This document shows, piece by piece, positions 1 through 26,451 of a stretch of DNA of 64,000 nt (position 1 is its first letter; the number at the start of each line of letters is the position of its first letter). The notes below the pieces were generated by a model. It ran no database searches, had not been told where the DNA came from, and saw only the letters and a list, made by a program, of their open reading frames with translations. Position numbers and translations under genes: made by a program. Where the stretch lies: the NCBI RefSeq assembly GCF_000763055.1, contig NZ_KN214135.1, positions 492,154 through 556,153 of the forward strand. The letters are read 5' to 3'. The stretch is from Collinsella sp. 4_8_47FAA. GTDB taxonomy: Bacteria > Actinomycetota > Coriobacteriia > Coriobacteriales > Coriobacteriaceae.

Positions 1-342
1 CGCCTCGGCGCCGCCCTCGCGGTAGAGCCTGCACCAGCGCTCCAGCGGGGACTTCGACCTGATCCCGAACTCGGCCATAGCGTCGGCCTTCGCCATCCCG
101 CCGTCGACCACGGCCGACGCCGCGGCGACCCTCTGCTCGAATGTGTACCTGGATTGTTTCCCGCCCATGGACAGCAGCGCCTCGCTTCCGAACGCCCGGT
201 ATACCCACTGCCATTCTCTCACGGTCTCGCGGGGGACGGACAGGGCCTCGGCCGCCGGCTTGCAGCCGACGCCGGCGTCGAAGAGCTCGACGGCCCGCCT
301 CCTGGACTCCAGGTCGTGCTTCACCCTGAGGTCTATACTCAT
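1..342 (-). CDS. IS3-type transposase OrfA-like protein (partial)
   Basis: This frame runs off the left edge of the window, so only the first 114 codons are visible. The product is a small, basic, helix-turn-helix protein with two HTH-like segments, one around residues 10-50 (containing the stretch PAAEALSVPRETVREW) and one around residues 66-100. That arrangement is typical of the DNA-binding first ORF of IS3-family elements. The ATG at 342 follows a GGGAGG ribosome site. OrfB, with the DDE catalytic domain, would lie to the left of the window. An alternative is a stand-alone transposase-like HTH protein. The family is fairly sure; the exact IS name is not known. Confidence 0.7.
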   Translation of the reverse strand, partial: MSIDLRVKHDLESRRRAVELFDAGVGCKPAAEALSVPRETVREWQWVYRAFGSEALLSMGGKQSRYTFEQRVAAASAVVDGGMAKADAMAEFGIRSKSPLERWCRLYREGGAEA

Positions 343-348
343 GGAAAA

Positions 349-381
349 CCTCCCATTTCCCGATGTCCAAGAAATGGGAGG
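349..381 (-). promoter_or_regulatory. Hairpin that buries the transposase ribosome site
   Basis: Two perfect 11-base arms (CCTCCCATTTC and GAAATGGGAGG) are separated by 11 bases. On the minus strand the second arm contains the GGGAGG Shine-Dalgarno sequence, six bases before the ATG. Folding would pair it with CCTCCC. Hairpins of this kind are known in other insertion sequences, where they block translation from transcripts entering from outside. Such a role here is inferred. Confidence 0.55.
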
Positions 382-415
382 CAGTTCACTGTCCCCTTTG
401 TGGTGGTTTTGCTCG

Positions 416-9456: not shown

Positions 9457-9512
9457 ATGATTGCTGGCCGTTTGGGCCCGGCGCGGACGTAGTGACCACG
9501 TGTTCAACAAAC

Positions 9513-9544
9513 AAAAAGGCGGCCGAGAACGTGTCTCGGCCGCC
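9513..9544 (-). terminator. Terminator of the membrane protein gene
   Basis: An 11-base perfect stem (GGCGGCCGAGA) followed on the minus strand by TTTTTGTTTGTT lies 38 bases beyond the stop codon of the gene at 9582. Confidence 0.85.
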
Positions 9545-9581
9545 CTTCGGCGGTATTCCCCGGTATATACAGCTGTTTTAG

Positions 9582-16103: not shown

Positions 16104-16146
16104 CGGGGGCGGCACGTCACACGGCGCGCCGCCCCCGACCTTTTTG
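16104..16146 (+). terminator. Terminator of lacE1-lacG1
   Basis: A stem of GGGGGCGGC and GCCGCCCCC is followed by GACCTTTTTG, 48 bases after the lacG1 stop. Confidence 0.85.
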
Positions 16147-16162: not shown

Positions 16163-16226
16163 TTTGTCTCAATCTGTAACATCTAGCCGAGTTTTTTGGG
16201 TCCTAGCTGTTACAGATTGAGACAAA
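16163..16226. repeat. Convergent-end palindrome, copy 1 (subtype A)
   Basis: Arms TTTGTCTCAATCTGTAACA and TGTTACAGATTGAGACAAA are perfectly complementary over 19 bases and enclose CTAG...CTAG and a loop with GAGTTTTTT. It lies between the 3' ends of lacG1 (plus) and R3 (minus). Five more copies are at 21101, 21181, 21261, 25993 and 26077. Confidence 0.8.
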
Positions 16227-16245
16227 TAGGCAGAACGAGCTGAAC

Positions 16246-17271
16246 CTACGCCCGTATATCTTTGACAGTCGAGCGTTCGACCAACGTACTCGGCACATGA
16301 ATCGCCTCGATAGACGAGCTCTCTCCAATCGCCGCCTCAAACGCAAGCTTACCGACACCGCGCAAATCAAATCGCAACGTCGTCAGCCGATTGTGAGGAA
16401 CAAGTCCCTCGAGTGCGTCGTCGATACCAACCACGCTCACGTCGTCGGGCACGGACAGGCCCGCGTTCTCGAGCGCGGCGATAACGCCCAGCGCCATCTG
16501 GTCATTTGCCGCAAGCACGGCAGTCGGCGCCTGCGACCCGCCGGCAAGCACCTCGGCCGCAATCCGCTCGCCCATGGCGTACCCACTGTCCGCACTCCAA
16601 TCGCCACGCAGCATCGGAGCGGCATCGACATGAGCACGACCCAGCGTATCGCGCCAACCGGCCTCACGAAAACGCGAGGAAATCGAGTTTTCCGGACCCG
16701 CCACAAACCGCATATTCGAGTGACCATGTTCCAGCAGATAATTGGTCAACAGCTCGCACGAACCATACTGGTCGGAGTCGATCGTCGTGCAGCGCGGATG
16801 CGCATACATGGACAGGATGACCGTTCGCACTCCCGGCTGGGGAACAAACTCCTCAAAATCGGGAGCCATGCGGTTCATGTTGAGAATCATGCCGTCGACG
16901 GGTCGCTCGACCATGCGGCGCGAGGCATCGGCAAGTGTATAGGGCTTGTCGCCGCCCATCTCGATCATAGTGACGGCAAAATCATGCTCGCGCGCCGCTT
17001 GCATGATACCCTCGAGCGTCGCCAGGTTACCGACACGTGTGATGTTGTACATGCACAGGCCAATAGAACGATACGACCCGCCGCGCAACGCCGTTCCAGC
17101 AAAATTGGGACGAAAGCCCAGCTCTTCCATGGCGGCCAGCACACGCTTGCGCGTCTTTTCCGTCACGTTGGGCATACCGTTGACCACGCGAGACACAGTC
17201 TGGCGGCTCACGCCAGCGAGCGCCGCAACCTCTGCCGCGCTCGCCGAACGACCATTCCTTGTCCGCTGAGC
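16246..17271 (-). CDS. LacI-family regulator R3, next to lacG2-lacE2
   Basis: This is a 341-residue LacI-type repressor if it starts at ATG 17271 (MAQRTRNG...), the start matching the lengths of its paralogues. An ATG at 17331 would add 20 residues but would put the RBS inside an operator. The HTH reads VAALAGVSRQTVSRVV, with specificity pair Arg-Gln. It is most like R1, and their operators differ mainly by one base (GTGCTCAT here, GTACTCAT for R1). It is divergent from lacG2 and probably represses lacG2-lacE2. Confidence 0.88.
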   Translation of the reverse strand, partial: AQRTRNGRSASAAEVAALAGVSRQTVSRVVNGMPNVTEKTRKRVLAAMEELGFRPNFAGTALRGGSYRSIGLCMYNITRVGNLATLEGIMQAAREHDFAVTMIEMGGDKPYTLADASRRMVERPVDGMILNMNRMAPDFEEFVPQPGVRTVILSMYAHPRCTTIDSDQYGSCELLTNYLLEHGHSNMRFVAGPENSISSRFREAGWRDTLGRAHVDAAPMLRGDWSADSGYAMGERIAAEVLAGGSQAPTAVLAANDQMALGVIAALENAGLSVPDDVSVVGIDDALEGLVPHNRLTTLRFDLRGVGKLAFEAAIGESSSIEAIHVPSTLVERSTVKDIRA

Positions 17272-17334
17272 CATGCCTTCCACGCTAACCTGCTTCCCAA
17301 CTATTCCCCGCGCCCATGGCGCATCGTACATACA

Positions 17335-17506
17335 TTGATAACGTGCTCATGATACCCGAGCCATATACCACAACATGAAAACTTCTGTCAATCAAAACCG
17401 CTTACCGAACAAATACAACCGTTCGCGGCTGTTTGAAGTTGTTTTGTTTCTATACATCCCAGCCGGATGTTAACGTGCTCATTGTCAAATGTTCACGTGC
17501 TTATTT
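17335..17506. promoter_or_regulatory. lacG2/R3 divergent control region with three operators
   Basis: Three LacI-type sites are visible: TTGATAACGTGCTCATGATA at 17335-17354, ATGTTAACGTGCTCATT at 17467-17483, and ATGTTCACGTGCTTATT at 17489-17505. The last two are 22 bases apart, about two helical turns. A variant box ACCGTTCGCGG lies at 17418-17428. The region from the R3 start to lacG2 has no coding frame. Confidence 0.7.
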
Positions 17507-17624
17507 TGGTTCTAATCATTTTAAGATAGTGTTTATCGGGCTTTTTCACCGCTGAACGCTAACCAGGGAGCCTCCTGAGCACAAACGCACAATATCGAAC
17601 AGCGAGACGAGAGGGTGTATGCAT

Positions 17625-19067
17625 ATGTCTTTGCTAAACCGCGTACAGCAGCTGCCGAAGGGCTTTGTTTGGGGCGCCGCAACCGCCGCGTACCAAACGG
17701 AAGGTTCCACGAAGGTGGCAGGCAAGGGTAAGACCATGTGGGACGATTACCTTGTCGCCCAGGGTCGCTTTTTGCCCGACCCGGCCAGTGATTTCTACAA
17801 CCGCTACGAGGAGGATATCCGCCTTTCTGCCGAGCATGGGCTCAACGCCATCCGTGTGTCCATCGCCTGGACCCGCATCTTCCCCAACGGCGACGATGCC
17901 GAGCCCCTCGCCGAGGGCGTTAAGCACTACCACGAGCTGTTCGCCTGCTGCAAAAAGTATGGCGTCGAGCCCTATGTGTCCCTGCATCACTTTGACTCCC
18001 CCGCCGCCCTGTTCAACCAGGGCGACTGGCTCAACCGCAAGACCGTCGACGCCTATGTGCGCTATGCCGAGTTCTGCTTCCGCGAGTTCCGCGAGGTCAA
18101 GAATTGGTTCACCATCAACGAGCTCATCAGCCTCTCGCACTCCCAATACATCCAAGGCAACTTCCCGCCCAACCATCACTTTGATGTGACGAGCGGCATC
18201 CAGAGCCAGCACAACGAGCTCGTTGCCCACGCCCGCGCCGTCAACCTGTATAAGGATCTTGACGAGACCGAGCACCTGGGCGGCCGCATTGGCATGGTCA
18301 ACGTCCTGACGCCGGCATATCCTGCCACCGACTCGCCCGCCGACCAGCACGCCGCCGACCTGTACAACGCCTTCTACACCGACTTCATCATGGACGGCGC
18401 CTTCCTGGGCCACTACTCCGCGCGCACCCTCTCACTCATCAACGAGATTCTGCGTGCCAACAACGCCACGCTTACGGTTGAGGACAGCGACATGGAGGAG
18501 CTCGCCAAGGCGGCGCCCCGCAACGATATGTTCGGCCTCAACTACTATCAGTCGGCGTTTATCGCCGCCTACGATGGCGAGTCCACCAACAGCTTTAACG
18601 GCACCGGAGACAAGGGCACCTCGTGCTTTAAGTTTAAGGGCGTCGGGCAGCAGGTCGATATGCCGGGTATCCCCACCACCGACTGGGATTGGCTCATCTA
18701 CCCGCAAGGCCTCTACGACACGCTCAAGCACATCAGCGCCACCTATCCCAACCTCCCCGTCATCTATATCACCGAAAACGGCCTGGGCCACAAGGACCCC
18801 GAGCCCGACGCAAACGGCATCGTCGCCGATCCCGAGCGCATCGACTTTGTCGACCAGCACATGGAGAAGGTGCTCCAGGCGCGCGCCGAGGGCGTCGACG
18901 TCCAGGGCTACTTTATCTGGAGCCTGCAGGACCAGTTCTCGTGGGCCAACGGCTATAACAAGCGCTACGGCCTGTTCTACATCGACTTCGACACGCAAAA
19001 ACGCTACATCAAGCAGTCGGCACTCTGGTACAAGGAGCTCGCCGACACTATGGCGGACGCGCAGTAG
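17625..19067 (+). CDS. lacG: 6-phospho-beta-galactosidase (copy 2)
   Basis: This GH1 enzyme of about 480 residues shows acid/base Glu in WFTINEL, nucleophile Glu in YITENGLG, and the 6-phosphate site SWANGYNKRYG. The ATG at 17625 has GAGAGGG at better spacing than the ATG at 17619. It differs from copies 1 and 3 in having TINEL instead of TFNEI and several insertions near residues 215-260, so it probably acts on a different galactoside. In this unit lacG precedes lacE, the reverse of units 1 and 3. Confidence 0.9.
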   Translation: MSLLNRVQQLPKGFVWGAATAAYQTEGSTKVAGKGKTMWDDYLVAQGRFLPDPASDFYNRYEEDIRLSAEHGLNAIRVSIAWTRIFPNGDDAEPLAEGVKHYHELFACCKKYGVEPYVSLHHFDSPAALFNQGDWLNRKTVDAYVRYAEFCFREFREVKNWFTINELISLSHSQYIQGNFPPNHHFDVTSGIQSQHNELVAHARAVNLYKDLDETEHLGGRIGMVNVLTPAYPATDSPADQHAADLYNAFYTDFIMDGAFLGHYSARTLSLINEILRANNATLTVEDSDMEELAKAAPRNDMFGLNYYQSAFIAAYDGESTNSFNGTGDKGTSCFKFKGVGQQVDMPGIPTTDWDWLIYPQGLYDTLKHISATYPNLPVIYITENGLGHKDPEPDANGIVADPERIDFVDQHMEKVLQARAEGVDVQGYFIWSLQDQFSWANGYNKRYGLFYIDFDTQKRYIKQSALWYKELADTMADAQ

Positions 19068-19093
19068 CGCATCGCCTCGCTTTCCCCCGAGAA

Positions 19094-19130
19094 GGGAGCG
19101 GCCCTATGCGATACAAACCCAGCCGCTCCC
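19094..19130 (+). other. Hairpin between lacG2 and lacE2
   Basis: A nine-base perfect stem (GGGAGCGGC and GCCGCTCCC) encloses 19 bases. It has no T-run. It is the third example in the window of a hairpin at a lacE/lacG junction. Confidence 0.55.
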
Positions 19131-19243
19131 CTCTCTCCCCCTGGGACCGACCCCGCCTGCACCCGGGCTTTTAGCAAGCGGGAGACCATATAGGTTTTCA
19201 ACGTCCATGCCATTAAGATTTCATGCAAAGAGGAGCGTGAACT

Positions 19244-21004
19244 ATGGAATCGATCGTTAAGTTCTTGGAGAAAGGTCAGCCGTACTTCGACAAGGTCTCT
19301 AAGAACATCTACCTTCAGGCCATTAAAGACGGCTTTTTGGCAGCAATGCCCATCATCCTGTCTTCTTCTGTCTTCCTGCTTATTTCGACCCTGCCGGGCG
19401 TTGTCGCCACGGTCGGCGGCTTTACGCTGCCCGACTGGTGGAACGTCGACGTCGTGAACTTCTGCAACAAGGTTTACAACTTCACGATGGGCGTCGTGGG
19501 CATCATGGTCGCCGGCACCACCGCAAGCGCGCTGACCGGCTCCAAGAACCGCCGCATGCCTGCCGGCAAGGCCATCAACGCCACGAGCACCATGGTCGCC
19601 GCCATGTGCGCTATGCTCATCTTGGCCGTTACCCAGACGAGTGCCAAGATCGACGGCGCCGATGTCTCGGTGTTCTTTACCGACAACATGGGCACCAAGG
19701 GCCTGCTGAGCTCCTTTGTCGCCGCATTTGCCACGGTCAACATCTATGCCTTCTGCATTAAGCGAGACATCACCATCAAGCTGCCCAAAGAAGTCCCCGG
19801 CGCCATCGCCCAGAACTTCCGCGACATCTTCGCCTTCAGCTTCTCCATCCTGTTTGTCGCCGTCATCGACGTTATCTGCCGCACCTGCTTGGCCGTCCCG
19901 TTTGCCAACGTCATCTCCACGCTGGTGAGCCCGCTGTTCGCCGCTGCCGATTCCTACGCCGGCCTCGCCCTCATCTGGTTCATGATCCCGCTGTTCTGGT
20001 TCATGGGCATCCACGGCCCCTCGGTCGTTAAGCCTGCCCTCAACGCCGCGCTGTTTGGCAACATCACCACCAACCTCGCCACGCTGCAGGCCGGCGGTCA
20101 CCCCGCCCTCGCCCTGACCGAGAACTTCGGTAACTACATCGGCGAACTCGGCGGCACCGGCGCCACGTTCATTGTCCCGATCATCTTCCTGCTCTTTATG
20201 CGCTCCAAGCAGCTCAAGGCCGTCGGCAAAGCCTCTGTCGTACCCGTGATGTTCGCCGTCAACGAGCCGCTGCTGTTCGCCGCGCCCATCATCCTCAACC
20301 CGTACTTCCTGATCCCGTTCCTGTTTGCCCCCGTGGCCAACGTCCTCATTGGTAAGTTCTTCATCGACTTTTTGGGCATGAACGGCTTTATCTATGCCAT
20401 GCCGTGGGCACTCCCCGGACCGATCGGCACCTTCATCGACACCAACTTCCAGCCGATCTCTCTGGTCCTGGTTGTCGTCCTGCTGGTCGTTGACTTCTTG
20501 ATCTACTACCCGTTCTGCAAGGCCTACGACAACGTCCTGTGCAAGCAGGAGGCCGAGACCCTGGCCGAAGAAGAGGCCGAGGAGACCAAGGCCGTCAAGA
20601 CCGCTGCCGCCCCCGCCGTTGAGGCTCCTGTTGTCGAGACCGCTTCTGCCACTGAGGCCTCCGCAGCTCCGTCCGCCCTTAAGGGCAAGGATCTGAGGGT
20701 TCTGGTTCTGTGCGCTGGCGCCGGCACCTCTGCACTGCTCGCCAACGCGCTTAAGGAAGGCGCCGACGAGCTGGGCATCGACATTACCGCCAACGCCGGT
20801 GCCTACGGCAGCCACTACGCCATCATGGACCAGTACAACGTCATCGTCCTGGCTCCGCAGGTTCGCACCTATTACAACGAGATGAAGGCCGACACCGACC
20901 GCCTGGGCATCACGCTGCTGTCGCCCAAGGGCAAACAGTACATCGACCTCACTAAGGATCCCAAGGGTGCCGTCGCCTGGATCGAGGAAAACCTCGAGGC
21001 ATAA
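19244..21004 (+). CDS. lacE: PTS lactose-type IICB permease (copy 2)
   Basis: This 586-residue IICB protein has the transmembrane IIC part (about 1-430) with GIHGPSVVKP and AVNEPLLFAAPIILNP, an Ala/Glu-rich linker and a IIB domain with phospho-Cys C490 in LCAGAGTSA. It starts behind AGAGGAG. It depends on an unlinked IIA, presumably LacF at 10869. It is followed by a clear terminator and then three palindromic repeats. It is closer in its IIB loop to copy 3 than to copy 1. Confidence 0.93.
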   Translation: MESIVKFLEKGQPYFDKVSKNIYLQAIKDGFLAAMPIILSSSVFLLISTLPGVVATVGGFTLPDWWNVDVVNFCNKVYNFTMGVVGIMVAGTTASALTGSKNRRMPAGKAINATSTMVAAMCAMLILAVTQTSAKIDGADVSVFFTDNMGTKGLLSSFVAAFATVNIYAFCIKRDITIKLPKEVPGAIAQNFRDIFAFSFSILFVAVIDVICRTCLAVPFANVISTLVSPLFAAADSYAGLALIWFMIPLFWFMGIHGPSVVKPALNAALFGNITTNLATLQAGGHPALALTENFGNYIGELGGTGATFIVPIIFLLFMRSKQLKAVGKASVVPVMFAVNEPLLFAAPIILNPYFLIPFLFAPVANVLIGKFFIDFLGMNGFIYAMPWALPGPIGTFIDTNFQPISLVLVVVLLVVDFLIYYPFCKAYDNVLCKQEAETLAEEEAEETKAVKTAAAPAVEAPVVETASATEASAAPSALKGKDLRVLVLCAGAGTSALLANALKEGADELGIDITANAGAYGSHYAIMDQYNVIVLAPQVRTYYNEMKADTDRLGITLLSPKGKQYIDLTKDPKGAVAWIEENLEA

Positions 21005-21038
21005 GACGCTGACACCACCTGCCGCTTGCAGACAATAA

Positions 21039-21080
21039 ATGGCCCGTGCATCGATGTGTGATGCGCGGGCCATTTTGTTT
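21039..21080 (+). terminator. Terminator of lacG2-lacE2
   Basis: A stem of AATGGCCCGTGCATC and GATGCGCGGGCCATT, with one mismatch, is followed by TTGTTT. Confidence 0.8.
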
Positions 21081-21100
21081 AGACCGCACCCGTCCTCCTG

Positions 21101-21163
21101 TTCATCTCAATCTGTAACATCTAGCCGAGTTTTTCGGTCCTAGCTGTTACAGATCGAGATGAA
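21101..21163. repeat. Convergent-end palindrome, copy 2 (subtype A)
   Basis: The arms are TTCATCTCAATCTGTAACA and TGTTACAGATCGAGATGAA. Compared with copy 1, TTTGTCTC has become TTCATCTC, and the opposite arm has changed from GAGACAAA to GAGATGAA. These paired changes keep the stem. The loop again reads GCCGAGTTTTT. Confidence 0.8.
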
Positions 21164-21180
21164 CGCACAGGCCAAGCCGA

Positions 21181-21242
21181 AAATCTCAATCTGTAACATG
21201 TAGACCACTTTTGACCGTCTAGTTGTTACAGATCGAGACAAA
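21181..21242. repeat. Convergent-end palindrome, copy 3 (subtype B)
   Basis: Outer arms TCTCAATCTGTAACA and TGTTACAGATCGAGA are the same as in subtype A, but the centre is TAGACCACTTTTGACCGTCTA. The inner stem TAGAC/GTCTA replaces CTAG/CTAG of subtype A. Confidence 0.8.
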
Positions 21243-21260
21243 CGGAATAAGCCGGGCCAA

Positions 21261-21322
21261 AAATCTCGATCCGTAACATCTAGCCGAGTTTTTGGGTCCT
21301 AGCTGTTACAGATTGAGACAAA
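21261..21322. repeat. Convergent-end palindrome, copy 4 (subtype A)
   Basis: Arms TCTCGATCCGTAACA and TGTTACAGATTGAGA enclose the subtype A centre CTAGCCGAGTTTTT. It ends 20 bases before the R4 stop codon, so copies 2 to 4 fill the whole gap between the lacE2 terminator and R4. Confidence 0.8.
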
Positions 21323-21341
21323 CGGAATAGGCCGAGCACGT

Positions 21342-22343
21342 CTACGCCCGCAAGTCCTTCACGCTGAAACGCTCGACCAGCACGCCCGAGACAAGCGTAC
21401 GGCTTCTGGAGCTCGGGGCTTCCAGACCCGCGACCACCTCGTTGAGCGCGCGGACACCAAGTTCGCGATGACGAAACTTCACCGATGTCAAAATCGAGTT
21501 GGGAATCGTCTTGTAGAGCTCATCGTCGAAGCCGATCACGGACACATCGTCGGGTACGCTCAGCCCCTTATCGCGCAGAGCCGTCATAACGCCGTTGGCC
21601 ATGCAATCGTTGGCGGCTAGGACCGCCGTACAGTCGGGCTTATCGGCAAGCACGAGACCTGCAGCATACCCGCTATCCGCACCCCAATCGCCCTGCAGCG
21701 GCTCGGGCGGCTCAAGGCCGCGCGCCTTGAGCGCCGCACGCCAACCCTTCATACGACATTGACTCGACAGCGACTCTTGCTTACCCGAAATGAAATACAC
21801 GTTCTTGTGACCGTGATCCAAGAAGTACTCGCACGCCATGCGCGCGCCGCCCTCTTGATCGTCACTGACGGTAGAGCAGGTAGGATGCTCCATCGGCGTG
21901 ATAATCACCGTCTTGAGGTCTTTCGGCGCCTCGAAGGTATCAAAGTCGTCGACCATCTGACGCAGGTTGAAGATCATGCCGTCGACGGGAAGCTGTGACA
22001 TTCTGCGCGCTGCATCTGCAAGGGTCATCTTATCCCCCGCACGCTTCTTGATCATCGTGATCGCAAACCCGCGCTCCTCGGCAGCGTCGGCAATACCGTC
22101 AATCATGTCTACGGCGCCGCCCGACAAATGGAACATCACTACACCGATGCACCCGTAACGACCCAACTTGAGTGAACGCGCGGCAAAGTTGGTCCGGAAC
22201 CCAAGCGCCTCCATGGCAGCATGGACCTTATCGCGTGTCGACTCGCGTACGCTATCAGGCTCATTGATCACACGAGACACCGTCTTGAGGGAAACGCCCG
22301 CGGCAAGTGCCACATCGTTCATTGAGACGCTTTTCTTGTCCAT
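21342..22343 (-). CDS. LacI-family regulator R4, next to lacE3-lacG3
   Basis: This LacI-type repressor is 333 residues if started at ATG 22343 (MDKKSVSMNDVA...). A longer frame reaches 22421 but adds a stretch with no family resemblance. The HTH reads VALAAGVSLKTVSRVIN, with specificity pair Leu-Lys, the most different of the four. Its presumed operator is also the most different: a perfect palindrome with ACA/TGT triplets. It is divergent from lacE3-lacG3, which it probably represses. Confidence 0.88.
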   Translation of the reverse strand: MDKKSVSMNDVALAAGVSLKTVSRVINEPDSVRESTRDKVHAAMEALGFRTNFAARSLKLGRYGCIGVVMFHLSGGAVDMIDGIADAAEERGFAITMIKKRAGDKMTLADAARRMSQLPVDGMIFNLRQMVDDFDTFEAPKDLKTVIITPMEHPTCSTVSDDQEGGARMACEYFLDHGHKNVYFISGKQESLSSQCRMKGWRAALKARGLEPPEPLQGDWGADSGYAAGLVLADKPDCTAVLAANDCMANGVMTALRDKGLSVPDDVSVIGFDDELYKTIPNSILTSVKFRHRELGVRALNEVVAGLEAPSSRSRTLVSGVLVERFSVKDLRA

Positions 22344-22425
22344 CGTTGCCAATGCTTCTCCAGTCAGTTCCCTGTTGATTGTTCTTTGCGTCCTAGCATA
22401 CACTACCTGCTCAACTTTCAAATTT

Positions 22426-22524
22426 ACCGTTTACCGGACAATCCCGACCGTTCACCCGCAAATCCTTGTTGCCTTTCTAGAAATGTCTTACGTTGTCATT
22501 AACGAAATGACAACGTTGTCATTT
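22426..22524. promoter_or_regulatory. lacE3/R4 divergent control region
   Basis: Two ACCGTT boxes (ACCGTTTACCGG at 22426-22437 and ACCGTTCACCCG at 22447-22458) are followed by two LacI-type sites. AAATGTCTTACGTTGTCATT lies at 22481-22500, and the perfect 20-base palindrome AAATGACAACGTTGTCATTT at 22505-22524. The lacE3 start is 100 bases further on. Confidence 0.7.
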
Positions 22525-22626
22525 CACAATGCCTTCCTTACCTGGAAGGTTTCCGGGCAGTCCTGACCATCCATCGACGACCAGTTCCATCCACATGCAT
22601 CGCGCATCAAGTAGCAAAGGAGCTCT

Positions 22627-24405
22627 ATGGACGCCATCGTAAAGATGCTCGAAAAGCATCAACCGTTCTTTGAGAAGATCTCGAGGAACATCTACCTCCA
22701 GGCCATCAAGGACGGATTCCTTGGGTGCATGCCCATCGTCCTCACCTCTTCGATCTTCCTGTTGATCGCCACCCTTCCCGGCGTCGTTGGCATCACGCTG
22801 CCCCAGCCGCTCATCGACTGGTGCAACAAGCTGTACAACTTCACCATGGGCGTCATGGGCATCATGGTTGCCGGCACCACCGCCAAGAACTTCACGGCTT
22901 CCATGAACCGTCGCATGCCCGCCGGCAAGGTGCTCAACGACGGCTCCACCATGGTGGCCGCCCAGTGCAGCATGCTGCTTCTCGCTGTTACGCAGTTCAC
23001 CACCAAGTTCGACGGCTCCGAGCTTTCGGTCTTCGATTGCACCAGCATGGGTACGCGCGGTCTGTTCTCGGCCTATATCGCCGCATTCATTACCGTGTGG
23101 GTTTATAAGTTCTGTGTCTCGCGCGATCTGACCATTAAGCTGCCCAAGGAGGTCCCGGGCGCCATCGCTCAGAACTTCCGCGACATCATCCCCTTCGGCG
23201 GCGCCGTCATCATCTGCGGCATCATCGATGTCGTCGTGCGCAACCTCATGGGCGTTCCGTTCTCCGAGCTGCTTATCAAACTGCTCTCCCCGCTCTTCAC
23301 TGCGGCAGAGACCTATCCCGGACTTATCCTTATCCAGGCAGCCACCGCGTTCTTCTGGTTCATCGGCGTCCACGGCCCCTCGATCGTCCAGCCGGGCATC
23401 GACCCCATCCGTCTTGCCAACCAGGCCGAGAACCTGCAGGTTCTGCTGGCCGGTGGCCACCCCGCCCACTCCCTCACCTTTAACATGTCGCTCGTGGGTG
23501 AGTTCGGCGGCACCGGCGCCACCTTCATCGTGCCGCTTCTGCTGATTCTCTTTATGAAGTCCAAGCAGCTCAAAGCCGTCGGTAAGGCCTCGATTGTTCC
23601 TGTTGCCTTCGCCGTCAACGAACCGCTGCTCTTTGGCGCGCCGATGATCCTTAACCCCTACATGCTCATCCCCTTTGTTGCCGCCGGCTGCGTCAACGTG
23701 AGTGTTGCCAAGTTCTTTATCGATAACGTGGGCATGAACGGCTTCTCCTTCGTGGTGCCTTGGGCCACCCCTGCCCCCATCGGCATCTTCATCACCACGA
23801 ACTTCCAGCTTATCGCCTTGGTGTTTGTCGCGATCATCATCTTGCTGGACGCCATCATCTACCTGCCGTTCTTGAAGGCATACGATAAGCTGCTCTGCGA
23901 CCAGGAGGCCGAGCGCGCCGCCGAGCTGGGTCTTGAGTCCGATGGTGCTGCCACCATCGCCGCCAGCACCTCTGCGCCCGCTGTCGAGCAGACGACCGCT
24001 TCCGTCGAGACGACCGCTGCCGCCGCCGACAGCGAGCCTGTCGCCGATCAGCCCGAGCCCGCTGCCGATGCATCCGCTAAGAAGGATGTCGACGGCCTGA
24101 AAGTCCTCGTCCTGTGCGCCGGCGCCGGCACCTCTGCCATGCTTGCCAACGCCATCAAGGAAGGTGCCGCGCAGACCGGAGAGAACATCGCTTCCTCCGC
24201 AGGCGCCTATGGCCAGCACACCGCCATCATGGATCAGTACGACGTCATCGTGCTCGCCCCGCAGGTTCGTAGCTACTACAACGACATGAAGGCCGACACC
24301 GATCGTCTGGGCATTAAGCTGCTCGCTCCCCGCGGTAAGGAATATATCGACCTTACCCGCGACCCCGCTGGCGCCATCAAGTGGCTCCGCGAGAACCTCG
24401 ACTAG
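22627..24405 (+). CDS. lacE: PTS lactose-type IICB permease (copy 3)
   Basis: This 592-residue IICB protein has IIC helices with GVHGPSIVQP and AVNEPLLFGAPMILNP, an Ala/Glu/Pro linker (about 435-490), and IIB with phospho-Cys C497 in LCAGAGTSA. An AAAGGAG site precedes the ATG. It forms a unit with lacG3 in the same order as unit 1. There is no IIA gene beside it. Confidence 0.93.
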   Translation: MDAIVKMLEKHQPFFEKISRNIYLQAIKDGFLGCMPIVLTSSIFLLIATLPGVVGITLPQPLIDWCNKLYNFTMGVMGIMVAGTTAKNFTASMNRRMPAGKVLNDGSTMVAAQCSMLLLAVTQFTTKFDGSELSVFDCTSMGTRGLFSAYIAAFITVWVYKFCVSRDLTIKLPKEVPGAIAQNFRDIIPFGGAVIICGIIDVVVRNLMGVPFSELLIKLLSPLFTAAETYPGLILIQAATAFFWFIGVHGPSIVQPGIDPIRLANQAENLQVLLAGGHPAHSLTFNMSLVGEFGGTGATFIVPLLLILFMKSKQLKAVGKASIVPVAFAVNEPLLFGAPMILNPYMLIPFVAAGCVNVSVAKFFIDNVGMNGFSFVVPWATPAPIGIFITTNFQLIALVFVAIIILLDAIIYLPFLKAYDKLLCDQEAERAAELGLESDGAATIAASTSAPAVEQTTASVETTAAAADSEPVADQPEPAADASAKKDVDGLKVLVLCAGAGTSAMLANAIKEGAAQTGENIASSAGAYGQHTAIMDQYDVIVLAPQVRSYYNDMKADTDRLGIKLLAPRGKEYIDLTRDPAGAIKWLRENLD

Positions 24406-24419
24406 TTCCTCCCTCTGTT

Positions 24420-24446
24420 GGTGCCCGGATTCCCGGTTCGGGCACC
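24420..24446 (+). other. Hairpin between lacE3 and lacG3
   Basis: An eight-base perfect stem (GGTGCCCG and CGGGCACC) lies between the stop codon of lacE3 and the lacG3 ribosome site, with no T-run. Confidence 0.55.
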
Positions 24447-24480
24447 TCTCCCTATTCGTATCCCACAGAAAGGATGACTC

Positions 24481-25902
24481 ATGACCAACCCCATGCAGTT
24501 CCCCGACGGCTTTGTGTTTGGCGGCGCCACCGCTGCTTACCAGGTTGAGGGCGAGACCCGTACGCACGGCAAGGGCAAAGTGCCCTGGGACGATTTCCTG
24601 GCAGCCCAGGGTCGCTTCTCCCCCGATCCTGCAAGCGATTTCTACAACAAGTACCCGGTCGATATTGACCTGTGCCAGCGCTTCGGCATCAACGGTATTC
24701 GCGTCTCCATCGCTTGGAGCCGTATCTTCCCCAACGGCACTGGCGAGATTAACCCCGAGGGCGTCGCCTTCTATCACGAGCTTTTCGCCACCTGCAACAA
24801 AGCCGGCGTTATCCCCTATGTCACGCTCGATCACTTTGATACGCCCGAGGCCTTTTACCAGAACGGCGGCGAGGGCTTCCTGACGCGCACGACGATCGAC
24901 GCCTTTGTCGAGTACGCCAAGTTCTGCTTTGCCGAGTTCACCGAGGTCAAGCACTGGTTTACCTTTAACGAGATTCCCGCAACCGCCGAGGGCAGCTTTA
25001 TCGTCGGCAACTGGCCGCACGGCGAGAAGTATCGCCTGGACAAGGCCTTCCAGCTCATGCACAACATGATGGTGGCCCATGCCAAGGCCGTCGTCGCCTT
25101 CCACGAGGGCGGCTTTGAGGGCGAGATCGGCATTGTCCAGAACCTGGAGCCCAAGTATCCCCTCGATCCCAGCAGCGCTGCCGACTGCGAGGCAGCTCGC
25201 ATGGCCGACGTCATCAACAACCGCTGGGTACTCGACGCCACCTTCCGCGGCCACTATGCAGCCGACACCATGGAAGCCGCGACCAAGCTGGCCCATATCG
25301 CCGGCGGCGAGCTCGACGTCCGTGACGAGGACATCGCCGCGCTGACCGCCGCGCTCCCCTACAACGATTGCCTGGGCGTCAACACCTACAAGTGCCAGTT
25401 CCTGCGTGCCGCCGAGGGCGAAAACGACATCAACCACAATGGCACCGGCGACAAGGGCTCTTCGCGCTGGTTCCTCAAGGGCGTGGGCGAGTCATGCGTG
25501 CGCGAAGGCGTTCCCACCACCGATTGGGACTGGATCATCTATCCCGAGGGCCTCTACGACCTGCTGCTTCGCATTAAGAACGATTACCCCAACTACAAGA
25601 AGATCTACATCACCGAGAACGGCATGGGCTATAAGGACGACTTCGAGGATGGCTTTATCGACGACGCCCCTCGTATCGACTACATGCGCCAGCATCTCGC
25701 GTGGATCCTCAAGGCGATCGACGGCGGCGTGAACGTCGACGGCTACTTTGTGTGGTCGCTACAGGACCAGTTCTCCTGGACCAACGGCTACAACAAGCGC
25801 TACGGCCTGTTCTACATCGACTTTGAGACCCAGAAGCGCTATCCCAAGGCGAGCGCGTACTGGTACAAGAACGTCGCGGAGACCGGCCTGCTCATGGCCT
25901 AG
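24481..25902 (+). CDS. lacG: 6-phospho-beta-galactosidase (copy 3)
   Basis: This 473-residue GH1 enzyme is very close to copy 1, sharing the N-terminal segment FVFGGATAAYQVEGETRTHG. The acid/base Glu is in WFTFNEI, the nucleophile in YITENGMG, and the 6-phosphate site in SWTNGYNKRYG. It starts at an ATG behind AGAAAGG. The similarity in both lacE order and lacG sequence suggests units 1 and 3 arose by duplication, while their regulators and operators diverged. Confidence 0.92.
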   Translation: MTNPMQFPDGFVFGGATAAYQVEGETRTHGKGKVPWDDFLAAQGRFSPDPASDFYNKYPVDIDLCQRFGINGIRVSIAWSRIFPNGTGEINPEGVAFYHELFATCNKAGVIPYVTLDHFDTPEAFYQNGGEGFLTRTTIDAFVEYAKFCFAEFTEVKHWFTFNEIPATAEGSFIVGNWPHGEKYRLDKAFQLMHNMMVAHAKAVVAFHEGGFEGEIGIVQNLEPKYPLDPSSAADCEAARMADVINNRWVLDATFRGHYAADTMEAATKLAHIAGGELDVRDEDIAALTAALPYNDCLGVNTYKCQFLRAAEGENDINHNGTGDKGSSRWFLKGVGESCVREGVPTTDWDWIIYPEGLYDLLLRIKNDYPNYKKIYITENGMGYKDDFEDGFIDDAPRIDYMRQHLAWILKAIDGGVNVDGYFVWSLQDQFSWTNGYNKRYGLFYIDFETQKRYPKASAYWYKNVAETGLLMA

Positions 25903-25924
25903 TTTCCGCCGCATACCCCCTGTC

Positions 25925-25973
25925 GGCCGCATGCGAATCCCTCCACGGGTTCGTATGCGGCCTTTTTGTTTTT
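25925..25973 (+). terminator. Terminator of lacE3-lacG3
   Basis: A stem of GGCCGCATGCGAATCC and GGGTTCGTATGCGGCC is followed by TTTTTGTTTTT. Confidence 0.88.
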
Positions 25974-25992
25974 AACCGAGCCGCGCCGCACG

Positions 25993-26055
25993 TTTGTCTC
26001 GATCTGTAACATCTAGTCGAGTATTTCGGCCCTAGCTGTTACAGATCAAGACAAA
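25993..26055. repeat. Convergent-end palindrome, copy 5 (subtype A)
   Basis: Arms TTTGTCTCGATCTGTAACA and TGTTACAGATCAAGACAAA enclose CTAGTCGAGTATTTCGG. It follows the lacG3 terminator. Confidence 0.8.
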
Positions 26056-26076
26056 CAGAACGCCCGAGCAGAAATA

Positions 26077-26134
26077 TCTCAATCTGTAACACGTAGCCCA
26101 CTTTTAACCGTCTAACTGTTACAGATCGAGACAA
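26077..26134. repeat. Convergent-end palindrome, copy 6 (subtype B)
   Basis: Arms TCTCAATCTGTAACA and TGTTACAGATCGAGA enclose a subtype B centre (GTAGCCCACTTTTAACCGTCTA). As in the cluster at 21101-21322, an A copy is followed by a B copy. Confidence 0.8.
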
Positions 26135-26186: not shown

Positions 26187-26242
26187 TTTCGGTATCACGA
26201 ACATACTTTCGGTATCATTTGATACCGATATGATACCGAAAA
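26187..26242. promoter_or_regulatory. Cluster of TTTCGGTATCA half-sites
   Basis: Four copies of TTTCGGTATCA or its core CGGTATCA lie in 56 bases: direct at 26187 and 26207, inverted at 26219 and 26230. Two form the palindrome CGGTATCATTTGATACCG (26210-26227). It looks like the operator of a dimeric regulator, but the flanking genes converge on it, so no obvious promoter uses it. The rest of the gap to 26451 has no gene; it holds a stem (GACACGTAAAA and TTTTACGCGTC, 26361-26394). Confidence 0.5.
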
Positions 26243-26451
26243 CATATTCGGTCCCGCTGGAGGACTTCGTACGCTACCCAACCAAGTTGCAGGTTCACGA
26301 ACTCCGTCGATCTTCCGAGCGCCCATGAATTCCTATTTGCGCGTCAAATCGCGTCACGTTGACACGTAAAATGGCGCGCAAATTTTTACGCGTCATTGTA
26401 AAGCGGTACCCCCGCGCCGGCAGGGGGCAGAAGTATCGTCTGTAGCATTAG

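Follow-up and report, generated by a model that had tools for sequence, protein, structure and literature searches.

Intergenic palindrome arrays of the Collinsella aerofaciens group as a clade-specific family of putative protein-binding sites

The 64,000-nucleotide stretch of the Collinsella sp. 4_8_47FAA genome analysed here (contig NZ_KN214135.1, positions 492,154 to 556,153 of the forward strand; hereafter the window) carries six long palindromes in three gaps beside LacI-GH1-PTS (phosphotransferase system) gene modules. We propose that these palindromes belong to a clade-specific family of intergenic arrays of the Collinsella aerofaciens group, which probably serve as binding sites for a protein, a reading to which we assign a probability of about 0.6. 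It is indicated by the constraint on the arms of the palindromes, their fixed spacing and their strand-level A/T composition, which together point to a site read on duplex DNA. A first-pass annotation of the window had regarded the palindromes as a structured element under selection, and a good part of that description stands: the element is repeated, intergenic, constrained, laid out in the manner of repetitive extragenic palindromes (REPs) and bacterial interspersed mosaic elements (BIMEs), and plausibly a protein-binding site. Its two other parts, namely maintained pairing and exclusive location at convergent gene ends, do not stand.

Anatomy and conservation of the palindromic unit

In the window the arm motif CTCRATCTGTAACA is matched 13 times with up to two mismatches, against 0.29 matches expected by chance. 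A search of the genome (2.28 Mb in 40 contigs) with up to one mismatch recovered 51 forward and 46 reverse matches, and none with the reversed-pattern control. Pairing of these arms yields 51 units in 22 intergenic arrays of one to four units each. The unit consists of two inverted arms (TCTCRATCTGTAACA) that flank a sequence-variable centre whose dyad is occupied by an A/T tract. Arm starts lie 39 bp apart in 50 of the 51 units, leaving a 25-bp centre, and successive units start 79-81 bp apart. In an ungapped alignment of 50 units the arms are near-invariant, with GTAAC present in 49-50 of them and positions 3 and 4 degenerate. The base on the dyad is A or T in all 50 units (A/T fraction 1.00, and 0.95 at ±1), and the shoulders at ±3 to ±6 have an A/T fraction of 0.13-0.25 (75-87% G/C). 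The fraction is high again at ±9-10, ±21-22 and ±29-31, the last being an A/T block outward of the arms with G/C beyond it. A weak NNTAG half-site occupies ±8 to ±12, inward of the arms, and the units end in WWYRTCTC and GAGAYRWW.

The centres are a different matter from the arms, as their median identity of 0.48 equals that of a null drawn from the column compositions, even if 40 pairs of centres are related where 6.8 would be expected. Centres at background identity beside near-invariant arms indicate that the paralogous units are old, the arms having been held while the centres drifted. Furthermore, between orthologous units of two genomes (G000 and G001) the 8-bp arm core CTGTAACA shows 2.0% differences as against 7.5% at non-arm sites (p = 2e-4).

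Changes in step between opposite arms had been interpreted as compensatory, with pairing being kept. Copies 1 and 2 of the window do change in step (TTTGTCTC/GAGACAAA to TTCATCTC/GAGATGAA), but copies 3 and 4 (AAAATCTC versus GAGACAAA) and copy 6 break the step, and when 50 copies are considered these columns pair at the random level, with 25 Watson-Crick pairs at the G/A column against 25.4 expected. When the full 30-pair palindrome was taken as the structure for 50 units and compared with 500 shuffles, the covariation score was 0.116 versus 0.145 in the shuffles, all 500 of which scored at least as high, and paired cells amounted to 70.3% versus 73.3% after shuffling. The first-pass annotation had held that copies elsewhere without complementary arms would speak against it, and a covariation lying under every shuffle is precisely such a result. 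One of five measures was slightly above the shuffles (18 pairs with any two-sided change versus 15.5, a value reached in 21 of 500). The paired fraction falls when the partner is slid by 1-3 columns because the arms are a symmetric motif, and the columns beside the dyad are anti-paired (z -3.6) because runs of A or T cross the dyad on one strand; the RNAalifold covariation term is only -0.07. Selection for hairpin pairing is ruled out by the position of the covariation beneath all 500 shuffles. Symmetric columns without covariation are instead the pattern that a dyad-symmetric protein site would be predicted to leave, one read on duplex DNA rather than as a hairpin.

Distribution, placement and exchange of gene modules

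Of 43 genomes of the genus, 22 carry 26-67 units, 18 carry none and three (G016, G036 and G037) carry a single one; the records of Collinsella aerofaciens MCC370 and Collinsella sp. WCA1-178-WT-3 also bear the element. Outside the genus no unit was found among 296 genomes of the class, and a looser arm pattern recovered only single transferred units in array-negative genomes and none in other genera. A phage origin was considered and dropped with 0 matches in IMG/VR. Over glgP-malK the array-positive genomes share a nucleotide identity of ~90% or more, whereas the negatives reach at most 76%; G034, which has no long match there, groups with the positives at clpC (93%). The arrays characterise a single clade, the Collinsella aerofaciens group, and our literature searches found no description of such a family.

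The single unit of G037 was probably transferred, as the stretch around it, at the clpC position, has 91% identity to the clade, while most other negatives are 81-85% identical there. G016 has a fragment with one unit and the start of clpC, apart from its own clpC, and in all three single-unit genomes homology to the array-bearing clade begins at the edge of the unit. We also observed that a tRNA gene beside a four-unit array (L034 ~9480-9550) is a gene-order breakpoint in G001 (L069 4772), and that the same tRNA gene is where G036 (L160), otherwise free of arrays, has its single unit, as at tRNA integration sites.

Across the segments of three genomes and the surroundings of the 22 arrays no unit lies inside a called gene, in agreement with the intergenic location originally claimed. 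The restriction to convergent gene ends holds for the window and not for the genome: array neighbours are convergent in 7 cases, tandem in 9, divergent in 5 and unclassified in 1, giving 7 convergent of 21 classifiable arrays. A preference for convergent ends was likewise rejected: in one 405-kb segment, 3 of 11 arrays were convergent, as were 21 of the 160 other gaps that measured 120 bp or more (p = 0.19). These orientations come from a simple codon-usage gene caller that is blind to RNA genes, and one "divergent" array in fact adjoins a tRNA gene, read from the sequence, that the caller missed. The neighbours include genes for EF-Tu, glutamate synthase, a ClpC-type ATPase, glycogen phosphorylase, DXP synthase, pantothenate kinase and transporters; an autoregulating binder encoded beside an array was rejected on these ordinary and varied neighbours. 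Regarding clustering at the replication terminus, no clear GC-skew switch was seen in the three 380-405 kb segments.

Within the window all six palindromes do sit where a GH1 or PTS gene on the plus strand converges with a LacI- or DeoR-type regulator gene on the minus strand. Neither the units nor the modules between them are assigned a strand. Array 1 is a single unit (16163..16226) whose 26-bp centre is the only one of that length among the 51 units; array 2 comprises units at 21100..21164, 21181..21243 (start 79 bp after the first) and 21261..21323 (start 80 bp after the second); and array 3 comprises 25992..26056 and 26074..26134 (start 80 bp after its first). The alternation of two centre types, A, A-B-A and A-B, is borne out locally, copies 1, 2, 4 and 5 sharing one centre (A) and copies 3 and 6 another (B), and both types are among the related pairs counted above. 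Genome-wide the centres are diverse, with the A type confined to the lac arrays and the B type having one clear relative elsewhere (C2:278488), so A and B are local duplicates and not two classes. The module between arrays 1 and 2 (16227..21099) encodes a LacI regulator (16246-17331, minus), a GH1 enzyme (17619-19067, plus) and a PTS protein (19244-21004, plus), the first label being from Pfam and the other two read by eye; that between arrays 2 and 3 (21324..25991) encodes a LacI regulator (21342-22421, minus), a PTS protein (22627-24405, plus) and a GH1 enzyme (24481-25902, plus). In each gap an intrinsic terminator on the plus strand lies between the gene and the array: that of the GH1 gene before array 1 at 16104..16145 (hairpin 16104-16137 followed by a T run; -32.3 kcal/mol, z -4.95), that of the PTS gene before array 2 at 21037..21080 (-29.6 kcal/mol, z -7.0) and that of the GH1 gene before array 3 at 25925..25968 (-31.5 kcal/mol, z -7.6). 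Arrays 1 and 2 lie 20 and 19 bp beyond the stop codons of the convergent LacI genes, and no other terminator was seen on the minus strand between these gene ends and the arrays, which may have a transcript-end role for the minus-strand LacI genes. Directly past array 3, at 26190-26250, short inverted and direct repeats (CGGTATCA...TGATACCG), at least partly common to G001, look like a separate operator-like site.

We then compared 380-405 kb segments of G000, G001 and G002. G002 lacks the whole LacI-GH1-PTS module that separates window arrays 1 and 2, and G001 lacks both a 1.2-kb module (G000 C2:179324-180590), in place of which one chimeric unit is left, and a 3.5-kb kinase/FHA module (C2:170.2-173.8k); in all three cases both breakpoints fall within arrays. 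Conversely, G001 has an additional 7.3-kb module after window array 3. At glgP-malK the position of the array is conserved between species, with the number of units (1-4) and their identity varying and chimeric units included. In all six of our gene-order comparisons, which are not independent of each other, arrays have more frequent breaks than other gaps do (odds ratios 1.7-29), but clearly so in two alone (p = 4e-5 and 2e-4; p = 0.003 against gaps of at least 300 bp). The arrays appear to double as places of gene-module exchange, and homologous recombination between the repeats explains the gain and loss of modules without a special enzyme.

The arrays also have insertion sequences in their vicinity. 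A multicopy IS3-family element (~16 copies, ends AACCACCACAAAGG...CCTTTGTGGTGGTT; a fragment occupies window 1-411) lies with one end just 10-35 bp outward of an array arm at three loci (L045 ~9640, L035 ~8575 and L041 ~9290), as if array flanks were preferred IS3 targets. Insertion-sequence ends were rejected as the source of the arms, the ends of the neighbouring IS3 element being unrelated. Matches to IS3-type transposases (G000 C1-C5) have N- and C-terminal thirds of up to 97-99% identity and a middle of 43-81%; these broken matches could be mosaic copies or frameshifted reading frames.

A proposed protein site and competing explanations

Based on the architecture of the unit, we posit that a sequence-specific protein would read two inverted half-sites of ~15-20 bp (the arm, with the weaker NNTAG inward of it) on duplex DNA, spaced at exactly 39 bp, with a bendable centre between them made of the A/T tract on the dyad and its G/C flanks. 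The fixed spacing, the A/T dyad and the G/C shoulders suggest that a single protein assembly might contact both arms and bend or wrap the intervening DNA, and the 80-81 bp repeat suggests that neighbouring assemblies may touch. The arrays could serve in chromosome organisation or insulation between genes, as gyrase- and IHF-bound BIMEs of E. coli are held to do, and module exchange would be a by-product of recombination between arrays. A bolder version, in which the 80-bp units are wrapped by a specific protein into nucleoprotein complexes that form the boundaries of exchangeable modules, sugar-uptake modules being swapped as blocks, strikes us as unlikely.

Several observations weigh against a protein site of this kind. 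No arm-binding protein was identified. The between-species constraint on the arms is based on 19 ortholog pairs, the A/T spectrum at 10 bp is not unique, as there are further peaks at 7.5 and 15, and the arms themselves dictate part of the A/T spacing. Gene-order breaks are clearly enriched at arrays in two of the six comparisons (p = 4e-5 and 2e-4), with a marginal enrichment or none in the other four.

The main reading of the first-pass annotation, an RNA-level element such as an mRNA 3'-end hairpin that terminates transcription or stabilises transcripts, draws on the good RNA folds obtained for single units (-36.3 kcal/mol, z -9.2; -23.5, z -4.9), and the close approach of arrays 1 and 2 to the LacI stop codons means that they may fall within LacI 3' ends. 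Yet covariation is lower than in any shuffle and the central columns are anti-paired; as a rule no T run follows the arms on either strand (ACAAAC or ATGAAC being typical); canonical plus-strand terminators with U-tracts already stand between the gene stop and each of the three window arrays; the glgP-malK array is flanked on both sides by terminator hairpins, as read from the alignment; and divergent and tandem locations are common. The 12 matches obtained with Rfam 15 are weak and all below the gathering score. A terminator or mRNA 3'-end function is accordingly unlikely, and we dropped the RNA-structure reading, which we regard as highly improbable, on the covariation result and the separate terminators. 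Likewise very unlikely in our view is a non-autonomous REP/REPIN element spread by a REP-associated tyrosine transposase (RAYT), although regular spacing and alternating orientation are also features of REP and BIME arrays (PMC2817692). Two Y1-type transposase genes are present in the genome, an IS200-like one and one for a 341-aa RAYT-like protein (G000:C4:196421-197440; L032 1006-2031, minus strand), which scores 36 bits against NCBIfam REP_Tyr_transpos (cut-off 80). Of 21 array-positive genomes tested, 20 carry an ortholog of the latter (identity of 72% or higher); the array-negative genomes carry none and have only relatives about 40% identical; but the positives form one clade, and therefore any clade gene would correlate in this manner. 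Moreover, in none of the 19 genomes inspected do arms flank the gene. By-eye assignment of catalytic positions against the usual motifs indicates Tyr to Ser in most orthologs and HVR for HUH in six (the window's own subgroup), with intact motifs in G003 and G034; there are in-frame stops in four genomes, and the gene is missing in G030. Whether or not the gene is intact, units with exact arms make up the same share (16/38 in G030, 24/67 in G020, 28/59 in G012 and 22/43 in G002 versus 19/50 in G000 and 19/42 in G001), and the RAYT-like gene does not maintain the arms. The transposase link suggested at the outset was thus sought, and its sole candidate proved broken or missing where arms are intact; the co-occurrence foundered on phylogenetic confounding, the lack of flanking repeats and decayed genes beside undecayed arms. 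The palindrome pairing that is a REP hallmark is not maintained, nor do the centres have the common sequence expected among copies of a mobile element. A comparison with transposon ends, including miniature inverted-repeat transposable elements, found mostly unrelated centres and no clean empty site with a duplication. The decaying RAYT-like gene also encodes a C-terminal helix-turn-helix-like stretch.

Two further explanations were considered. Strong DNA gyrase sites like those of E. coli BIME-2, requiring no dedicated binding protein, would fit tandem intergenic arrays with alternating A/T and G/C, given that the E. coli gyrase motif has a 10.75-bp GC periodicity and BIME-2 elements are transcription-independent gyrase sites (PMC6379681). 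However, gyrase readout is indirect and degenerate, with no need of near-invariant 14-bp arms, and the enzyme is universal whereas the arrays are confined to one clade, which leaves this explanation improbable. Alternatively, the units might be site-specific recombination sites between which modules move as cassettes through a dedicated recombinase. The module insertions and deletions with both breakpoints inside arrays, the 1.7-29-fold odds of a break at an array and the start of clade homology at the unit edge in G016, G036 and G037 are in keeping with this. Nevertheless, ordinary homologous recombination acts on direct repeats of 50-80 bp and gives chimeric units; no fixed crossover point was seen; many breaks lie away from arrays; and no cassette-associated recombinase was found, although no systematic search for one was made. 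We therefore think it doubtful that a dedicated recombinase is involved, and favour a protein-binding array at which recombination is incidental.

Collinsella aerofaciens is a common human gut bacterium, and an array family that marks module turnover would provide a handle on its genome plasticity. It would also allow REP/BIME-like function to be examined where neither a REP transposase nor a maintained hairpin is present. The binding protein, if found, would probably prove to be specific to the lineage, with a nucleoid or boundary function.

Comparison with known repeat families

Palindromic, intergenic candidate structured RNAs have been described from human-gut bacteria (PMC8040213), and the arrays resemble them in these three respects. 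In the text of that study most palindromic candidates are predicted terminators, the sole Collinsella candidate named, 51 bp long, lies upstream of the L7/L12 gene, and none of the palindromic candidates described there is the array family. Intrinsic terminators differ from the units in having a U-tract after their G+C-rich hairpin. With the REPs and BIMEs of enterobacteria and Pseudomonas (PMC2817692, PMC3733652) the arrays share short palindromic units, intergenic position, many copies per genome, tandem arrangement with alternating arm orientation and regular spacing, strain-variable copy number and nearby insertion sequences; as extragenic repeats in alternating arrays, with no unit in genes of three genomes and a period of 79-81 bp, they have the layout by which REPs and BIMEs are recognised. 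Unlike in REPs, the conserved part is a long non-covarying arm and the centre is variable with a fixed length of 25 bp, pairing is not preserved by complementary changes, unit ends have no GTAG/CGTC tag, no cognate RAYT gene is flanked by repeats, and there are about 50 copies rather than hundreds. The nearest model is E. coli BIME-2, gyrase-bound arrays of paired palindromes (PMC2817692, PMC6379681), whose gyrase sites are likewise intergenic tandem arrays of paired palindromic units with A/T-G/C alternation (PMC6379681), but the highly conserved arms and rigid 39/41-42 bp spacing of the Collinsella units would imply direct readout. The family is best filed as REP/BIME-like but distinct.

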